From the NCBI GenBank assembly GCA_003990745.1, contig RBNI01003686.1, forward strand, positions 1-15,373: a DNA stretch of 15,373 nucleotides, read 5' to 3'. Source of the stretch: Jimgerdemannia flammicorona. Its lineage: Eukaryota > Mucoromycota > Endogonomycetes > Endogonales > Endogonaceae. Of the stretch, positions 1-15,373 are shown piece after piece (position 1 is the first letter of the stretch; each line of letters opens with the position of its first letter). The notes beneath the pieces are model-generated. The model did no database searches and was not told the DNA's origin. It saw nothing but the letters and a program-made list of their open reading frames with translations. Both the position numbers and the translations under genes were made by a program.

Positions 1-371
1 CCCCCCTACCCCTTCCCGATGAAAGACTACCTTATCTAACACTATCGCTACCCTCCTACCACTCTGCTCACAGATCCTCACCACCAGACTGCGACGTCAG
101 CCCCCTGAAGACCCCAACCCACCCACCATCCAATCAGCAGATCCTCCAATAGCCCTTTCCATCTTAATACCTTCTCCCCCAGTCTCAGCTGCTGTCTCTC
201 CTCAAATACAAAAAACCAATGACCCACCAGTCCTACCTATATTACTAATACCTACCCTACAGTGAGCCAACTATTACCCACCCCACCCACAAGCCAAGAT
301 CGCAAGTCCCCCCAGCGACCTCCCTCCCCCACCAGCCTATGCCCCACACCCAGTCGATCCCCTATCTTAGC

Positions 372-464
372 CCAAAAGTCCCCCAAAACCTCACACTCTC
401 CTAACCAATGTTCTGGCATCTGTACATGACCCCCAGCTCTCCCAACATCATAACACTCCTCACA
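372..464 (-). other. C-terminal zf-RVT-like Cys/His motif of LINE ORF2
   Basis: Within the ORF2 tail of copy A, residues follow C-x2-C-x14-H-x4-C-x6-W (CEEC, then EHWLGECEVLGDFW). This arrangement resembles the reverse-transcriptase-associated zinc-binding (zf-RVT) module found after the thumb in many LINE ORF2 proteins. The preceding stretch KFWVVWWRML also fits the conserved lead-in to that module. In that family the module is thought to bind nucleic acid; here the assignment is by pattern only. The forward segment D at the right edge stops just before the equivalent cysteines. Confidence 0.6.
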
Positions 465-1205
465 GTCAAATTGTCCACCATCCACCAAATGCCCCATATG
501 GAAATTCAGCATAATATTCCTCTGCAACATTCTCCACCATACCACCCAGAACTTGAGGAGAAGCCACCTCCATACCTCTGCGCTCCAAGACCAGATACTA
601 GCCCAGTCCCACTCCTCACCGATCCCTGCCACCTGCCAGCCACTTGGCCAAAGATCCTGGCCAAGCCCCTGCTGGCACTCTACTCCCTCCCCAATATCGA
701 ACATAACAAGTGGCACACCTCTAAGGAGCAATCTATCTCAATGCCACATATTCGGCCCCTACACTGTCTCCCCCTTATTACCTTGCCAGTGCAGGCCAAT
801 TTGGTGCACGCCATCAGTCACGCCCTACCAAAAGCCCTTAAACTGCAGCCACCGAATTCCATTCAGCTCCACCAAAGAGAGCAGATCGCTGGAGGACCCC
901 CAAGGAGATGTTCACATCTCCCATACCTTCTGCATCAGAGGCACCCAACTTCTGCCATGCAGTTCCACAGCTCTTTTCAACCACCAGGCTCGCAAACAGT
1001 ACAGTCTCTTAGGAAAGTCCACTAGTCCAAGACCTCCCCTGACTACCAGCCTCACAAGAGTATCCCAACTGATCTGGGACCTCCTCCTCGCCCAAATCCA
1101 ATCCCTAGCCATCTTCATCAGCTTCTTCACTACCCATGCTAGGAAGTTGAGGTGATATGCCACATACCACAGCTTGGGGAACCAGTAAACATTCAGAATT
1201 GACAC

Positions 1206-1208
1206 TCA
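1206..1208 (-). other. In-frame TGA in the RT thumb, shared by copies A and B
   Basis: The thumb of copy A reads ISLAG, stop, VSILNVYW in one frame. Copy B has the same TGA at 11230-11232. LINE and related reverse transcriptases usually have AGR here, so the stop is best explained as CGA to TGA. Its presence in both copies suggests it was inherited from their common source, or that the same CpG mutated twice. Confidence 0.8.
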
Positions 1209-2769
1209 CCCTGCTAGAGAGATATGGCAACCTCCCCATCCTTGAAGAGCCTCCCCCCAAATGTTCACCCTGCTCTCCCACCACCCTTGTGGCAAGACAG
1301 AACCATATATAGAGAGGAAGATGCCCAAATACTGCACCACCTCACCAGTAGGGACAATTGTTCCAATGACATCCCCACCCACTAGCCCATTCCCTAGCAC
1401 CATTGTCTCACACTTATGCCAGTTGAGCTTCGCCCCCGAGTGGGCCTCATACCATTCCACAGTCTTCTGTAGTACCGCTACATCTGCCACATTCCCAAGT
1501 CCAACCACCATATCATCAGCAAAGGCCCCCACCTTCCACCCTATACCATATATAGAGAGCCCCACCACCTTCCGGCGAATCCTATCCATCAATGGCTCCA
1601 GCAAAAGGGCATAAAGAATAGGGGACAGAGGATCCCCCTGAGGAACTCCTCTTCTCAAGGAAAATGCCCTCCCATGGTGACCATTACACATCAGAGCTAC
1701 CCAACTGCTCTCCAGCAGACTCAACATAGAGGTGCTAAACCTTGGGGGAACTCCAATTCGGTCCAATACCTTGCCCAGCCATACCCACCATACACAGTCA
1801 TAGGCCTTCTCCTGGTCCAAAAAGACCAACCTTCCATCCAGGCCACAGGCCTGGGCCCCTTCAATCATACCATGAACCCACACAGTCCCATCTCTTATAA
1901 GTCTGCCCCCAACAAAGCCCCGCTGCTCCTCCCCCAGCACCTGTTGGGTAACTCTCTGCAGCCTTGTGACAATCACCTTAGTCACCATCTTCCTGTCCAT
2001 GTCCAGAAGCATGATCAGCCTCCAGTTCTTCCAGTCTTCTCTCCTCCCCTTGTCTTTGTACAATAAGACCACCAGCCCAAGATCCTGCTCTCCCACCCAC
2101 TCACCACTCTGAAGGACATGGTCACAGAGAGCAGCCATCTCACCCAAAACTCCAGGGACATTGACCATCTTCTTCCAGAAGTCCCATGGCAATCCATCCT
2201 CCCCTGGCACCGTCCCTAGTTTAGTTGCTGTCAGGACACTCTGAATCTCTTCCCCCTGCACCAGTAAGATCAAGTCACCCAGTCCAGCTACCTGTGGCAG
2301 CCCCCACTCTTCCAGTGTATCTGCAATCTCCACTTCATCAGCACCCCCTTCTCTCTCACTCCACAAGCCCTGCTATCTCTCCTTCAACACCCCTAAGATT
2401 TGTTGCATACCATGTATCATATCCCCATCAGCATCCAGGACCCTATCCCACTGATGTTGTACTCTCCTGGCTTTGAGAAGTCTTGATAAGTATCCAGTAG
2501 GCCGCTCACCCTCCTCAAGCCCCTGCTACTGTAGTCTAGCAGCCATGCCCCGCATATGAGTCTCCTCCTCTTCCCTCAACACCTGTTGTAGTTCCACAAT
2601 CTCCAATTTTGCCCTCTTGATCCTCCAATCCTCCACCCCAACAACAGTGAGCAAATCCACCCAATCCATTTGTAATCTCCTCAGCCTGTTGGAAGCACAC
2701 CTTGTGCACCTCCTCCTCTGCCTCCCAGCCTCTCTACCAGCCTCTCCCCAATAAGCCCTCACAGCCTCT

Positions 2770-2776
2770 TTTACTC
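2770..2776 (-). other. Internal deletion junction in copy A (ORF1 to RT linker)
   Basis: On the minus strand, sequence like copy B ORF1 (near 14,499) switches to sequence like the copy B ORF2 linker (near 12,796) within a few bases. About 1.7 kb is lost, removing the ORF1 C-terminal part, the ORF1/ORF2 spacer and the whole AP endonuclease. The reading frame also shifts from the ORF1 frame to the ORF2 frame at this point. The breakpoint is uncertain by several bases because both sides are purine-rich. Confidence 0.8.
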
Positions 2777-3872
2777 CCAGATACCTCAGCCCCAACTGCC
2801 TTCTTCTTCACCTCTACTGTCATACTCGCCAGAAGCTCCCTCTGTCTCCTGTGCCCCTACACCCACTCCCACTGCCCCTTGTCTATACGGATATGCTTCC
2901 CCTCCACCACCTCCAGATGTGTCAACTCCTCATACATCTTCCAGGCCCTTGCCCTCCTCTCCACAGCTCCACTCATCTCCTCCAATGCCTCCAACAAATC
3001 CTCCTCCTCCTCCTTACTCTCCTTCACCCTCGACACCTTACAGATGAATGCCCCCCACATCAGTACAGAAGGCCAGTCACTTGCCTTCCCTGTGGCCTCC
3101 TTTCCCACCAGCCAAATCCTGACATCAATGTCACCTGTCCTGATTGTTGTCCCCTCCCACACCTGAAAGCCGATGTCCACCATGTTGCCATAATCAATCA
3201 TCACCTCCTCCACCCTCTTCCTAGTCTCCTCCTTAGTCACCATGAGCACCCCCTTCACCAGAAGCTATACCACCCTGGGGTTCTATCACAAGCACCACAC
3301 CATGGGGACCACCACCTCCCCAACCACGACTCCAGTCTTCAATGCCTCATCCAGTGGCCCAGCCTCCTCAAAGCCCACCTCGACCCCCTCCAGACCCTTC
3401 AAGAACTTTACTGAAGCTGCCCCAGCCACCTGCTTCAAAATAAGTCCCAGAACCATCCTCGCCGTCACCACCAAGCCCCAGAAGCACAAGGTCACTGCAA
3501 ACTCCAAGATTGACTTCTTGAGTAACAGGGCCACCACCAGCCCCATTATACCATCCGCCAGGTCCCTCTTCTACATTGGAAACCCCTGCCCCACCTGGCC
3601 ATCAGCCATTACATCTCTTTTTTTTTCCTGATTCCCTGTCACACTCCCATCAACAGTCACACCCCCAGCTACAGCACCACCAGCCCCTACACCTGCACTC
3701 CCAGCCGGAGCACTGCCCCCCCTCCCAAGGCTTGCCTTGCCCTTCTCCTACACATTACCAGCCCTATTACCAGCTGGCCACCCACTCCCCTTAATCTTGT
3801 CTGCGAAGCTTGGGAGACCAGATCTTCCCCCATTGCTACTGGACACCAGCCCCCCTCCAGAGTCTTCTCCAT
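2776..3872 (-). pseudogene. LINE ORF1 remnant, N-terminal and middle parts (copy A)
   Basis: ORF1 of the LINE, expected from the family to bind element RNA, although I recognise no RRM or CCHC knuckle. A possible ATG start is at 3872-3870; the homologous protein continues in another frame, so a small indel lies just after it. A low-complexity Gly/Ala-rich N-terminus is followed by a conserved core (ALLLKKSILEF, then KQVAGAASVKFLKGLEG) at 3546-3286. Next comes the block MVTKEETRKRVEEVMIDYG, an RTGDIDVRI strand and an acidic run (SKEEEEEDLLEAL) with coiled-coil character at 3258-2857. Adjacent TGA and TAG codons lie at about 3282-3277, and TAG interrupts QWEWV/GH near 2854. The C-terminal third is deleted. 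Copies B and C confirm the frame. Confidence 0.82.
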
Positions 3873-4074
3873 TCTTTGGTCCTCTGAAGGCCCCTATCTC
3901 CAGGCCATAATCCCTTCCCAGTCAAAGGCCCTAGATCCACCCAACCTAATATGTGCACCTGTATAGTCATTGCTCACTATGTTGCTAGTCACCTTTCACT
4001 AAAAACATTGTCAAAAGTATTGCTTGAGTCTTGTGTCACCTGAATGTTACCGGTAAAAGGTCTGTCTCCTTGAG
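3873..4074. other. Unassigned spacer between LINE copies A and C
   Basis: About 200 bases between the possible ORF1 start of copy A and the last recognisable reverse transcriptase sequence of copy C. It could be the 5' UTR of copy A, a piece of copy C too decayed to align, or both. I see no open frame, RNA gene or clear target-site duplication in it. Confidence 0.5.
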
Positions 4075-9986: not shown

Positions 9987-10640
9987 CTAGAGTTGCAGTT
10001 CCTTCCTTTGCTGGGGAGTGAGTGTTTCCATATAGTTCTGGAGGGCTTTGCATGTATTTTTCAGAACTTCTTCTTTTTCCCAGATAGCATCATAGGAGGG
10101 GTAACCCTTCCACTTGATGAGGAAAAACTGCTTAACTGTTTTGGTATGTTTACAGACCTTGTGGTCAAGTATTTCCTCAATTTCGAATTCCTCATGATCT
10201 TTAATCCTAACTAGGGGTAGTAGTGGAATCTTACACTTAGAAAAAGAATTCTCATAGTAGTCCACCAATTGGTTGATATGGAATACTGGGTATACTCAAA
10301 TATTGTGGAGAAGTTATAACTTGTAGTTGACTTCACTGACTTTTTCTACAATCTTATATGATCTAATTCTTCTAGCACAGAGTTTCTTGGCTGATTGTTG
10401 TACCAGGGTGTCTGGGTAGAGGTGGTCTGTTCTAAGCATGACCATATCACTAATATTATAGGAGGCTTCTCTTTACTTCAAGTTCACATACTTGGTCTAA
10501 TAGTCCTGTGCTTCTATGAGAGCATCTCTTGTCATTTGGATAAGATCAGAAATAGTCTCAGCCAAATCTTGGGCTACTGGGACTGCTGATTTCACAGTAG
10601 TACTTGGGGTTCTTGGGTATTGACCATAATTCAGTCTTCA
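9987..10640 (-). pseudogene. Chromovirus integrase C-terminal region and chromodomain
   Basis: Continuation of pol after a frameshift near 10,640. It starts with LNYGQYPRTP, a hallmark of the region just after the integrase core. It then has RDALIEAQDY, the SDMVMLRTDHL strand of the integrase C-terminal domain, ARRIRSYKIVEKV, and HINQLVDYYENS. Stops interrupt it at about five sites, nearly all explained by Gln or Arg codons mutated by C to T. An open stretch of 93 codons at 10268-9987 carries the chromodomain and ends at the natural-looking TAG. In the family this region helps target integration to heterochromatin. Confidence 0.85.
10029..10187 (-). other. Chromodomain at the end of the chromovirus polyprotein
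   Basis: Fifty-three residues with the chromodomain pattern: FEIEEILDHKV, then QFFLIKWKGYPSYDAIW and EKEEVLKN. Compared with HP1-type domains, the three aromatic cage positions correspond to Phe (in EFEIEEI), Trp (KWKGY) and Tyr (KWKGY), so histone methyl-lysine reading could have been functional. It is uninterrupted by stops, unlike the preceding integrase. Confidence 0.88.
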
Positions 10641-11037
10641 TTGTAGAGGTTTGCTGGCTATTATTGTAGACAAACTCAGCATAGGCTAAGTATTTGTTCT
10701 AGTCATTCTGCTTATAACAGCAGAAGATTCTAAGCATCTGCTTGAGGGTTCTATTGGTTCACTCAGTTTGACTGTCACTCTGAGGGTGGTAGACAGTAGA
10801 GAACTTCAGCTTAGTTCCATTAAAAGAGAAGAATGTCTTCCAGAAGTTACTTGTAAACTTTGCATCTCAGTCAGACATAATAGTGCTAGGTATACTATGT
10901 AGTCTGAATACTTAATTGAGGAAAATCTCAGCAATCTCTGGTACTGTGGCAGTGGTTTTGGTGAGTACAAAATGGGCTTATTTGCATAGACAGTCTACAA
11001 ATACCACAATGACATCCCATCCTTTCTTGGTCTTAGG
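10641..11037 (-). pseudogene. Chromovirus integrase catalytic core fragment
   Basis: Integrase of the DDE transposase superfamily, which would join the element cDNA to host DNA. Read from the LINE junction: TKKGWDVIVVFVDCLCK contains the first catalytic Asp. STIMSD, stop, [13 protein letters not shown] contains the second. [11 protein letters not shown], stop, TNRTLKQML contains the catalytic Glu, and YAEFVYNNSQQT follows. All three acidic residues are present. Five or more stops interrupt it, at codons expected to be Gln, Arg or Trp in relatives. The core starts only a few residues before the first Asp because LINE sequence replaces the upstream part. A frameshift near 10,640 separates it from the C-terminal region. 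Confidence 0.88.
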
Positions 11038-11229
11038 AAAGTCCACCAGCCCAAGACCTCCCCTGACTACCAGCCTCGCAAGAGTATCCCAACTGACCTG
11101 GGACCTCCTCCCTGCCCAAATCCAATTCCTAGCCATCTTCATCAGCTTCTTCACTACCCAAGCTGGGAAGTTGAGGTGATATGCCACATACCACAGCTTG
11201 GGGAACCAGTAAACATTCAGAATTGACAC
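10978..11229 (-). other. Chimeric open frame: LINE RT thumb fused in frame to integrase
   Basis: A continuous frame of 83 codons reads from the LINE thumb (VSILNVYWFPKLWYVAYH) through GLGLVDFPK directly into integrase (TKKGWDVIVVFVDCLCK) and ends at a CAA-derived TAA. The fusion is in frame by chance of the insertion point. It has no start signal of its own and follows a TGA, so I do not regard it as a gene. Confidence 0.85.
11031..11037. other. LINE/chromovirus junction with 7-base microhomology
   Basis: TCTTAGG here is followed by GAAAGTCCAC exactly as in copy A (1007-1013). On the left it continues naturally into chromovirus integrase (CTAAGACCAAGAAAGG on the minus strand). The seven shared bases are where the target strand could have annealed to LINE RNA. 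Confidence 0.75.
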
Positions 11230-13656
11230 TCACCCTGCTAGAGAGATATGGTGACCTCCTCATCCTCGAAGGGCCTCCCCCCAAATGTTCACTCTGCTCT
11301 CCCACCACCCTCATGGTAAGACAGAACCATATATGGAGAGGAAGATGCCCAAATACCACACCACCTCACCAGTAGGGACAATTGTTCCAATGACATCTCC
11401 ACCCACTAGCCCATTCCCTAGCACCATTGTCTCACACTTATGCCAGTTGAGCTTTACCCCTGAGCGGGCCTCATACCATTCCACTGTCTCCTGTAGGGCC
11501 ACTACATCTGCCACATTCCCAAGTCCAACCACCATATCATCAGTAAAGGCCCCCACCTTCCACACTATACCATATATAGAGAGCCCTGCCACCTTCCAGC
11601 GAATTCTATCCATCAATGGCTCCAGCGAAAGGGCATAAAGAATAGGGGACAGAGGATCCCCCTGAGGAACTTCTCTTCCCAAGGAAAATGCCCTCCCATG
11701 GTGACCATTACACATCAGAGCTGCCTGACTGCTCTCCAGCAGACTCAACATAGAGGCACTAAACCTCGGAGGAACTCCAATTCAGTCCAATACCTTGCCC
11801 AGCCACACCCACCGTACATGGTCATAGGCCTTCTCCTGGTCCAGAAAGACCAACCTTCCATCTAGGCCACAGACCCGGGCCCCTTCAATCACACTATGAA
11901 CCCATGCAGTCCCATCTCTTATAAGTCTGCCCCCAACAAAGCTCCACTGCTCCTCCCCCAGCACCTGCTGGGCAACTCTCTGCAGCCTTGCAACAATCAC
12001 CTTAGTCACCATCTTCCTGTCCATATCCAGAAGTATGATCAGCCTCCAGTTCTTCCAGTCTTCTCTCCTCCTCTTGTCTTTGTACAATAAGGTCACCAGC
12101 CCGAGATCCTGCTCCCCCACCCACTCACTGCTCTGAAGGACATTGTCACAGAGAGCAGCCATCTCACCCAAAACTCCAGGAACATTGATCATCTTCTTCC
12201 AGAAGTCCCATGGCAGTCCTTCCTCCCCAGGTGCCATCCCTAGTTTAGTTGCTGCCAGGACACTCTAAATCTCTTCCCTCAGCACTGGCATGATCAAGTC
12301 ACTCAGTCTGGCTACTCATAGTGGCCCCCACTCTTCCAGTGTGTCTGTAATCTCCACTTCATCAACACCCCCTTCTCTCTCACTCCACAAGCTCTGCCAT
12401 CTCTCCTTCAATACCCCTAAGATTTGTTGTGTGCCATGTATCATATCCCCATCAGCATCCAGGACCCCATCCCACCGATGTTGCACTCTCCTGGCTTTGA
12501 GAAGTCTCAATAAGTATCCAGTAGGCTGCTCACTCTCCTCAAGCCCCTGCCACCATAGTCTAGCAGCCATGCCCTGCATATGAGTCTCCTCCTCTTCCCT
12601 CAACACCTGTTGTAGTTCCAAAATCTCTAATTTCATCCTCTCGATCCTCCAATCCTCTACCCCAACAACAGTAAGCAAATCCACCCAATCCATTTGTAAT
12701 CTCCTCAGCCTGTTGGAAGCACACCTTGTACGCCTCCTCCTCTGTCTCCCAGCCTCTCTACCAGCCTCTCCCCAATAAACCCTCGCAGCCTCTTTCAATC
12801 TCATCCAGCAGACAGCCACAGGCAAACCCTCATGCCTCCAGGCAAAAACATTTGCCTGAATATCCACCACCCACACTTCTCACAACCCCTTCTCAGCCAG
12901 CAGAGAGGAGTTAAGGTGCCAATGTCTGGGTCAATCTCCACTCTCCCCAAACTGCCCCTGCCCTAAAAGTCCCCAGTGATCAGACCATGGGCACCACTCA
13001 ACCTCCAATATCTTCCAAACATCCGACCCCCAGCACTCCGCCATCAGAATCCAATCAATCCTTGTGCCCAAGCCATTCACCCAATGTGTATAGACCCTCG
13101 CATCCCCCCACCTCATTCTGCCCATATCCCCCAATGAGCTCAACGTCTCCACCTCTTCCCATGTATCCAGACCTCCACTTCTGCTCCCAGCACTCCTCCC
13201 TCCATCAGTTCTGTCTAGATGCTGATCCCGAACCATATTAAAATCTCCACTGAGCATATCGACCCCTTCCTCCAAGAGAATACCCTCCTCCAGCAGCTCC
13301 CTAATCTATGCAATCCACTCACCCCTAGCCACAGGGCAGTAGCAAGAGCCCACCTTCACTGATTCCCACCCTGGCCGATGCCAATCTCCCCAGACCAAGC
13401 AATCACCCCAGCTCCCAATGTCCCCCAATTTGCCTCTACCCTTCCTCACCAAAATCGCTACCTTTTCAAACCAAGCTGTGGCCCCACCCCATTCCCTAGT
13501 CCACTCTACCCAGTCATCCTCATCCTCACATCAAATATCCTGCAGTAAAAAGAGATCAGCCTCCAATCACTTGAGCCAAGTAAAAATATTCTTGCACTGC
13601 CCAGAGCCCCATAACCCATTCACATTCAAAGAGAAAATGTTGGTTGTACTGTTCAT
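11031..13656 (-). pseudogene. LINE ORF2, AP endonuclease and reverse transcriptase, truncated in the thumb (copy B)
   Basis: The best ORF2 here. It starts at ATG 13656-13654 (MNSTTNIFSLNVNGLWG) and keeps one frame to the junction at 11,031, about 875 codons, interrupted only by stops. Endonuclease: the N-terminal NVNGLWG and ADLFLLQD, GSCYCPVARGEW, MLSGDFNMVRDQHLDR (13275 onward), then RIDWILMAECWG and WCPWSDHWGLL, whose SDH carries the catalytic His. The linker is charged (REEEETHMQG). Reverse transcriptase: GEEGLPWDFWKK, FLDQEKAYD, EVPQGDPLSPIL, and FTDDMVV, where Thr replaces the usual Ala of FADD but both Asp remain. Stops include TGA 12928-12930, 12877-12879 and 12313-12315, TAG near 12,268, TGA 11779-11781 and 11230-11232. 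Cys/His tail missing. Confidence 0.9.
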
Positions 13657-13687
13657 AAGGAATAAATATATAATGTTGTCTCATCCT
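13657..13687 (-). other. ORF1/ORF2 spacer of LINE copy B (31 nt)
   Basis: Separates the ORF1 stop TAG (13690-13688) from the ORF2 ATG (13656-13654). It is AT-rich, and its length is identical in copy C although the sequences have diverged. Confidence 0.65.
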
Positions 13688-15046
13688 CTACAAGTCTGCA
13701 GTCCGCTCCTCCTGCACCAAGTCCAAGTCATGTTCAGCAGCCAGCTCCCTCTTCCCTGCTTCCTGTGCTGCCAATGCTCCCAGAAGTTCTATCATTGCCC
13801 CATTGTCATGCTCCTCAAATTCCTCACGATACTCTAGACAGGCCTTCCACCAGAGCCACAAACCATGACGCTCTGCCCAGCAGTAGGCCACCTGCTCACC
13901 AGCAACTGCCCCAAGTTCTGCCCTCCTCACCTCATCAACCTCATACCCCTCCTCCTCTAGGAAAATATCCATAATCTCCATCTTCAGTACCTCCTCCACT
14001 CCATTACCACGCAGAATCCTTGCCCAATGCTCCTCAGGCATCGCTCGCAAGTCCACTTCTCCCAAAGCTTCAGCTGCTAGATTGTCCATCACTGTGCACA
14101 TCCACAACAGGTTCCCCACCTCCTTCCCTCCTGGGGTCCCTGGCCGCCCTGCTTTCAGCATCGTAGTGTCAGCTCCTACACTAGCAGCCTCATCCCACTC
14201 CTCCTCAGGAACATCCACCAGCTTGTCCTCGCTGACCGCCACCACCTGACCCCCTTGCCCCACATCAGGAACCCCAAAGCGCACCTACTGGGCCCCCTGC
14301 ATCCTTGTATCCCCCATCGTCCCTCTCTTCCCAACCGGGCCCCTCCTGATAAGTGGGGGGGGGGTGGAATCCAACTCTGGCTCCCACACTTTGAAGGTAC
14401 CATCAGCAAATGGATCCTTACCCAGTGCCCCCCCAGCCCCTACCTCCTTCGCCTCCACCTCCTCTCCTCCTTTCCCAGCCCAGACACTGGCTTCAGCGCC
14501 TCCAGACTCCTCAGTTCCAACCATCGTCTTCTTCACCTCTCCTGTTATACTCGCCAACAGCTCCCTCTGCCTCTTGTGTCCCTGGGCCCACTCCCACTGC
14601 TTCTTATCCATACGGACATGCTTCACACCCACCACTTCCAGATATGTCGACTCCTCATACAGTTTCCAGGCCTTTGCCCTCCTCTCTACAGCACCACCCA
14701 ACTCCTCCAGCACTTCCAACAAGTCCTCCTCCTCCTCTTCACTCCCTTTCACCCTCGACACCTTGCAGACAAAGACCCCCCACATCAGCACCAAGGGCCA
14801 GTCACTCCCCTTCCCCATGGCCTCCTTGCCCACCAGCTGAATCCTGACATCCACATCTCCTGTCCTGATCTCAGTCCCCTCCCACACTTGAAAGCCGATG
14901 TCCACTATGTCACCATACTCCAACATCACCTCCTCCACCCTCTTCCTCATCTTCTCCTTAGTCACCATGGGCACCCCCTTCACCCGAAGCTGCACTACCC
15001 TGGGGTCCCATCACAAGCACCACACCATGGAGACCACCACCTCCTC
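13688..15046 (-). pseudogene. LINE ORF1, middle and C-terminal parts (copy B)
   Basis: ORF1 lacking its N-terminus because the inversion junction cuts it at about 15,046. One frame runs from there to the TAG at 13690-13688, interrupted by TGA at 15013-15011 and TAG at 14287-14285. Order: VSMVWCL, KGVPMVTKEKMRKRVEEVM, GFQVWEG, RTGDVDVRIQL, the acidic helix SEEEEEDLLEVLEEL, a basic stretch GHKRQRELL, a low-complexity Pro/Gly linker, then the C-terminal block NLAAEALGEVDLRAM, EEHWARILRGNG and WWKACLEYREEFEEH. The TGA at 15011 is shared with copy A, while copy C has Arg (AGG). An RNA-binding role is inferred from position only. No CCHC knuckle or RRM seen. Confidence 0.85.
14355..14364 (+). repeat. 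G10 homopolymer inside ORF1
   Basis: Ten consecutive G on the plus strand, encoding consecutive Pro codons in minus-strand ORF1. Copy C lacks the run at the matching place (near 6,430), so it expanded after the copies separated. It is a likely site of length error in sequencing or replication. Confidence 0.8.
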
Positions 15047-15048
15047 AT
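15044..15048. other. Head-to-head inversion junction between LINE segments B and D
   Basis: Left of this point the sequence matches copy A ORF1 on the minus strand (ACCATGG then ACCACCACCTCC). Right of it, TGGCCTGCGCTGGCGAGG matches the reverse complement of copy A near 799. No filler bases are obvious, and overlap is at most a few bases. Confidence 0.8.
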
Positions 15049-15373
15049 GGCCTGCGCTGGCGAGGCAATGAGGGTGAGGCAGTGTGGGGGCCGAATATGT
15101 GGCATTGGGATAGATTGCTACTGGGAGGTGCTCCACTTGCTACGTTTGATATTGGGGATGGGGTAGAGTGCCAGCAGGGGCTTGGCCAGGATCTGTGGCC
15201 AAGTGGCTGGCAGGGGGTAGGGATCGGCGAGGAGTGGGACTGGGCTGGTGTATGGTCCTGGAGTGCGGAGGTACGGCGGTGGCTTCCCCCCAAGTTCTGG
15301 GTGGTATGGTGGAGGATGCTGCGGAGGAATGTCATGCTGAATTTCCGTTCAGGGCATTTGGTGGATAGAGGAC
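15049..15373 (+). CDS. LINE ORF2 C-terminal fragment, plus strand, open to the window edge (segment D)
   Basis: An open plus-strand frame of 108 codons with no stop, beginning mid-protein at the inversion junction and running off the right edge. It encodes the region between the RT thumb and the Cys/His motif: EAVWGPNMWHWDRLLLGG, GDGVECQQGLGQDLWPSGW, EEWDWAGVWSWSAEVRRW, PPKFWVVWWRMLRRNVMLNF. It is homologous to copy A on the minus strand at about 799-479. Two codons that are stops in copy A (in VW/GP and HW/DR) are Trp here, showing that copy A suffered TGG to TAG and TGG to TGA. It is a fragment of a longer ORF2, not a complete gene. The family's Cys/His motif should begin a few codons beyond the edge. 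Confidence 0.85.

Follow-up and report, generated by a model that had tools for sequence, protein, structure and literature searches.

The stretch of DNA analysed here (the window) comprises all of contig C3686 of Jimgerdemannia flammicorona, 15,373 nucleotides long, so its right edge falls inside the forward LINE segment that we call D; searches were made in the genome assembly (134.8 Mb, 7754 contigs). Besides an inverted structure at its right end, the window contains two LINE copies (A and C) and the remnant of a chromovirus (Table 1). As a ruler for the LINE we used L009, a full-length young relative in the same genome (contig C158:3080-8954), and positions on it, given as e, are contig positions minus 3079. 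L009 spans e1-e5875 and is followed by poly(A), and nine further LINE copies whose 5' edges were printed start with CATCTTTCTC. Pfam matches in L009 to Exo_endo_phos (PF03372, E 2.9e-11) and RVT_1 (PF00078, E 9.7e-9) place the family, by its predicted endonuclease and RT domains, among the APE-type non-LTR retrotransposons. A search with the RT listed 72 proteins, most of them unnamed, and the long ORFs at three loci yielded no host gene of use. At the 3' end, 18 of 20 fetched places show an A-run with a readable flank; in the remaining two the A-run is cut by a contig end (L086) or interrupted (L082). A target-site duplication was looked for around L009 and was not found. Contigs C7136, C5741, C1000 and others frequently stop in the last ~500 bp of the LINE or at its poly(A), and insertions are therefore split between contigs. 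Copy A has itself lost e1303-e3000 (1.7 kb), and near 4001-4059 it carries sequence resembling the first 60 bp of a LINE.

Table 1 Features of the window used in the analysis, with positions on the LINE ruler (e) where they apply.
Feature	Position	Strand	Remarks
LINE copy A	1..4059	-	e5780-e3001 joined to e1302-e421; same family; ruler of the preliminary description
Pfam PF00385 match	9987..10268	-	E 1.1e-12
Chromovirus integrase remnant (insertion target)	10300..11034	-	cut at LINE junction
Left copy of putative target-site duplication, TTTCTTGGTCTT, at least 12 nt	11023..11034	+	same 12 nt at C866:24-35
Target microhomology, chromovirus/LINE	11031..11037	.	TCTT (11031-11034) certain; TCTTAGG maximum
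Segment B, inverted LINE	11031..15047	-	e4773 to e757; 92.7% to L009 over 4017 bp
Inversion joint	15047..15048	.	no microhomology; 208 bp of element absent
Segment D, forward LINE	15048..15373	+	e4982 to e5307, cut by contig end; 90.2% to L009

The integrase-like reading of the chromovirus remnant, FPKTKKGWDVIVVFVDCL, was identified by eye. The remnant has 85-87% DNA identity to at least 39 other places, and in the 10 relatives printed the chromovirus sequence continues past the point at which the LINE joins it in the window. Segment B covers the rest of ORF1, the endonuclease, the RT and beyond, and it also lacks e1-e756, 756 bp at the 5' end; segment D shows 92.9-93.9% identity to five copies of a lineage named G2 below. 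The head-to-head order of a minus-strand B and a plus-strand D, as given in the preliminary description, was reproduced by alignment to L009 with coordinates correct within 1-2 bases, and the loss of about 0.2 kb claimed between the segments was measured as 208 bp. The missing interval, e4774-e4981, is present and colinear in all 11 full-span copies fetched; the gap measures 208 bp in the nine that align right up to both edges, and 210 in L019 and L028, where the alignment ends 2 bp early. When the joint-spanning sequence was used as a query, 37 of the best-scoring 39 other places listed start at the D edge, and the other two (C213 and C6545) begin ~20 bp before it, with LINEs that continue colinearly. 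Among these 39 best-scoring places, the joint was seen at none, and it is so far a feature of the window copy. A strong difference in divergence between B and D had been named as an observation that would refute twin priming; private differences amount to 62/4017 in B (1.54%) and 6/326 in D (1.84%), no clear difference, and these figures do not show different ages for the two segments.

At the left junction, chromovirus GGTCTT joins LINE AGGAAAGTCC. The 10 chromovirus copies printed read GGTCTTGGGGAG and similar forms at this point, with GGTCTTAGG once, and LINE relatives at e4773 read mostly CCTCTTAGGAAAG in antisense. The microhomology of seven bases claimed earlier can thus be kept at four bases with certainty, and at seven only if the invaded copy had the chromovirus variant that is found in one of the 10 printed relatives (L048). 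The chance of such microhomology is ~1.6% for at least 4 nt and 0.04% for at least 7 nt.

The end of the contig inside D hides the tail of the LINE, and the right flank was therefore sought elsewhere in the genome as a poly(A) run with the bases around 11031 behind it. A gapped pattern of an A-run and an 8-nt form of the target was found at 36 distinct places. One of them, C866, matches from the very first base of the contig, with the A-run at 1-19 and TTGGTCTT at 28-35; a second 8-nt match, C7184:10521-10556 (minus), may be near a contig end. The four preceding bases TTTC, as in the window, are present at C866 (24-35) and absent at C7184, and the extended 12-nt form of the target occurs at 51 places in the genome, of which C866 is the sole one common to both searches. 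Bases 20-23 of C866 separate the A-run from the 12-nt repeat; the target would supply ATCC here, so the repeat is not perfectly extended, since base 20 is not A. The 14-mer TTGGTCTTAGGAAA was not found at C866, which does not continue as AGGAAA, and C866 therefore does not duplicate the left junction. By our rough estimate, a match of this kind would arise at a contig start by chance ~1 or 2 times in 100. We infer that C866 is a candidate for the other side of the window insertion, linked to it by 12 nt. Contig C5156 was also considered as a carrier of the target repeat and was rejected, as the 14-mer lies there in DNA unlike LINE or chromovirus by eye.

The two segments differ in lineage. Using 190 diagnostic sites that separate G1 (L009, L016) from G2 (L018, L022, L023, L024, L028), site counts were 11:1 for G1 in B at e4251-4773 and 0:9 for G2 in D. 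With five copies a side, the log10 likelihood ratio of G2 over G1 was -17.1 for the last 570 bp of B (e4204-4773) and +11.5 for D with the same panels as for the controls (+15.1 with larger panels), on a scale that is rough, as L009, L016 and copy A score near zero on the left when excluded from their own panel. A comparably sharp switch, with opposite signs both beyond 4, was seen in none of the 18 control copies. The D interval was fetched for the 20 best-ranked new places among the 39 others listed for the end of B, and it is present at 19, all of which lean to G1 with 86-92% identity to D (L057, L059 and L060 only in part); at the twentieth, L063, a different LINE piece takes the place of the interval. 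Among the places of this list typed earlier, L009, L014, L016 and copy A are G1 in D and L012 (C213) leans to G2 (1:7), so that in total 23 of 24 typed places lean to G1. These diagnostic sites and likelihood ratios, which assign B and D to different lineages, weigh against the claim that a single LINE was the source.

Relatives that resemble both halves can nevertheless be found, and their existence aids an account with one source. C347 has a left side of 6:3, 94.0% identity to B over e4440-4773 and 93% to D; the left sides of C6867 (7:2) and C6823 (2:2, 180 bp only) are, like that of C347, mixed or G1-leaning, and their D parts are 92-93% identical to D of the window. C7709 also has a left side of 7:2, with a D part only 90% identical, and L012 and L026 are weak mosaics. 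Because such weaker mosaics exist, the source RNA may itself have been a G1/G2 mosaic, although none as sharp as the window was seen among the copies typed. The correlation of identity to B with identity to D over 10-11 copies was -0.37 for the window (p 0.26) and 0.14 to 0.77 for 11 controls, a difference that is suggestive, not significant. The overlap of the lists of B and D relatives was also tried as a lineage test and given no weight, because the G1 control L016 (7 shared places) did hardly better than the window (5 shared among 39 listed each); L024 had 19. As a separate observation, L013, L014, L015 and L019 resemble G1/G2 mosaics that switch near e3000, which suggests that LINE lineages recombine or that templates are switched between them.

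In a non-random sample of young copies, drawn from matches to D and to the chromovirus, the 5' end was readable in 21. Eleven are near full length (L009, L013, L014, L016, L018, L019, L022, L023, L024, L028, L041), nine are truncated (L011, L012, L017, L020, L021, L025, L026, L027 and C6823, in L094) and one, the window copy, is inverted; L015 and copy A were excluded as complex. No reversed segment of the same family was found upstream of the eight truncated copies other than C6823. At L011:4357-9993 (C6545), a young LINE truncated at ~e4603 adjoins, to within ~1 nt, the starting base of a LINE that runs the other way and belongs to another family; the latter is 65-75% identical to L009 in pieces and extends to at least e4480. 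A second inversion seemed to lie on C158, where minus-strand e4552-e5875 beside plus-strand e3-e4455 first resembled full-length twin priming. It was rejected when the next 3 kb proved to belong to an intact element nested in another LINE: a full-length LINE of a second family (C158:15035-20901, covered by L010, L051 and L052; ~67% to L009, with poly(A)) lies in reverse at ~e4527-4552, flanked by a perfect 15-nt duplication, AGAGATAAGTGGTAA. Nesting can thus imitate an inversion pattern. The 3' flank of L078 falls on antisense LINE sequence at e4562 and, together with C158, perhaps marks a recurrent insertion site.

We consider that a single twin-primed insertion into the chromovirus integrase, from an RNA that was a mosaic of two lineages, is the best single account of the structure, and we hold it with somewhat better than even confidence. 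A LINE with an APE-type endonuclease would have entered the integrase gene by target-primed reverse transcription, with the bottom-strand nick priming at the poly(A) tail and the RNA being copied back to about e4982. The 3' end of the top strand (ending in TTTCTTGGTCTT) would have annealed within the coding region of the RNA, at AAGA of e4770-e4773, and would then have primed a second cDNA extending to e757. Joining of the two cDNAs would leave e4773-e757 inverted and e4982 onward forward, with 208 bp lost. This reading is favoured because the order, the orientation and the gap match it, because there is microhomology at the target and none at the inversion joint, as in 5'-inverted L1, and because C866 starts with an A-run and then the target repeat, as predicted. 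The confinement of the joint to the window among the best-scoring places listed and the similar private divergence of B and D also count in its favour, as does the perfect duplication around the related C158 LINE. It is weakened by the imperfect 12-nt link to C866 and by the finding that the window copy is the one inversion of the family among the 21 young copies, and in its simple one-RNA form by the assignment of B to G1 and D to G2. Of the twin priming proposed in the preliminary description, the structure, the gap, the microhomology and the candidate flank therefore fit, and the single LINE is not established. We infer one mosaic RNA of the two lineages as the template, two RNAs being less likely.

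The sharp change of lineage, together with the target repeat, would also be accounted for if each end of the target DNA had primed its own LINE RNA in one event, G1 giving B and G2 giving D. We regard this as unlikely, since the weaker mosaics indicate that a single RNA can suffice. Two templates also leave unexplained why no more than 208 bp of the element map separate the breakpoints, but this closeness counts little, as 3 of 9 observed 5' truncation points are also within 208 bp of e4773. The arrangement at L011 repeats the layout of the window with elements of two families, and would be a second case on which a two-RNA reading could be tried. Another reading is that of two separate events, in which a reverse LINE, B, lost its 3' end by a microhomology-mediated deletion into the chromovirus, and D, a 5'-truncated G2 LINE, was inserted later, head-to-head, into B at e757. 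The lineage mismatch is expected from such a history, and L011 gives an example, with elements of different families, of a truncated forward LINE that directly adjoins a reversed one. LINE-in-LINE insertion is common (LINE sequence is matched by 4 of the 18 3' flanks that could be read, and the C158 element is another nested case), and B reads GAGACCACCACCTCCTCA before the joint, GA being the start of 10 of 22 LINE 3' flanks. However, two events predict e756 antisense past the tail of D, and none of the 71 places with the 15-mer from the e757 edge of B fits this at the required position near a contig end, as judged from contig rank. They also leave the A-run and target repeat of C866 to chance, and we think that this history is improbable. 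We give rather less credence still to an artefact in which the last 326 bp were attached via a chimeric molecule or a wrong repeat path. D is indeed the terminal 326 bp of the contig and of a lineage other than that of B, in an assembly whose contigs often stop in the 3' end of this LINE family. Against this, the joint offers an assembler no shared sequence, rare or private bases occur throughout D (e4996 to e5301), as they would in a single copy, and the target repeat behind the A-run calls for a forward 3' end on the right. The mosaic-RNA, twin-primed insertion thus remains our preferred reading.

The window copy is probably a case of the known 5'-inverted LINE type in a LINE distant from L1. 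In the sections of PMC2912911 available to us, target-side microhomology is reported in 577 of 605 5'-inverted L1 copies and none in 28 of 605; about 70% show 2-5 bp, and the inversion joint is more often without microhomology. In the excerpts consulted, L1 inversion rates vary by set, being about 10% of copies, 30.9% (639/2068) or 18.2% (298/1634). As far as these descriptions reach, the window copy is like 5'-inverted L1 in its inverted 5' part, forward 3' part, loss between them and target-side microhomology and, at the candidate right flank C866, in its A-run and target repeat. It is unlike 5'-inverted L1 in that it belongs to another LINE family, its segments are of two lineages and its flank is linked indirectly. 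The zebrafish elements ZfL2-1 and Nimb-2_DR, studied in DT40 and HeLa cells, are also non-L1 LINEs that use target-primed reverse transcription (PMC4245944, in part), but their inserts are described in the accessible text as free of 5' inversion, bar one Nimb-2_DR insert in DT40 cells. With this one exception, 5' inversion was confined in that cross-species study to human L1 in human cells, and in the passages seen it is described as varying with the LINE species and with the host. No fungal or plant case of twin priming was found in our literature search, as judged by titles and abstract openings, and in the available portions of PMC2718515 and PMC5389967 the term appears in reference lists alone. 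The C158 nested LINE is like the window in having head-to-head LINE sequences in the same genome, but it is a complete element that lies within another LINE, carries poly(A) and a 15-nt duplication, and is ordinary nesting. If such an inversion were well supported in a LINE so distant, this would suggest that priming of the second strand on the RNA is a more general property of target-primed reverse transcription. Through the lineage switch, it becomes testable whether the two cDNAs must share one RNA. If the two-RNA reading were true, each broken DNA end would have captured its own template within one insertion.

Beyond the inverted copy, the 3' flanks show a bias of their own. G directly follows the A-run in 14 of the 22 readable LINE 3' flanks (18 from L073-L092, with L082 and L086 dropped, together with L009, L026 and two on C158), and this G, or GA, may reflect a possible preference of the endonuclease.
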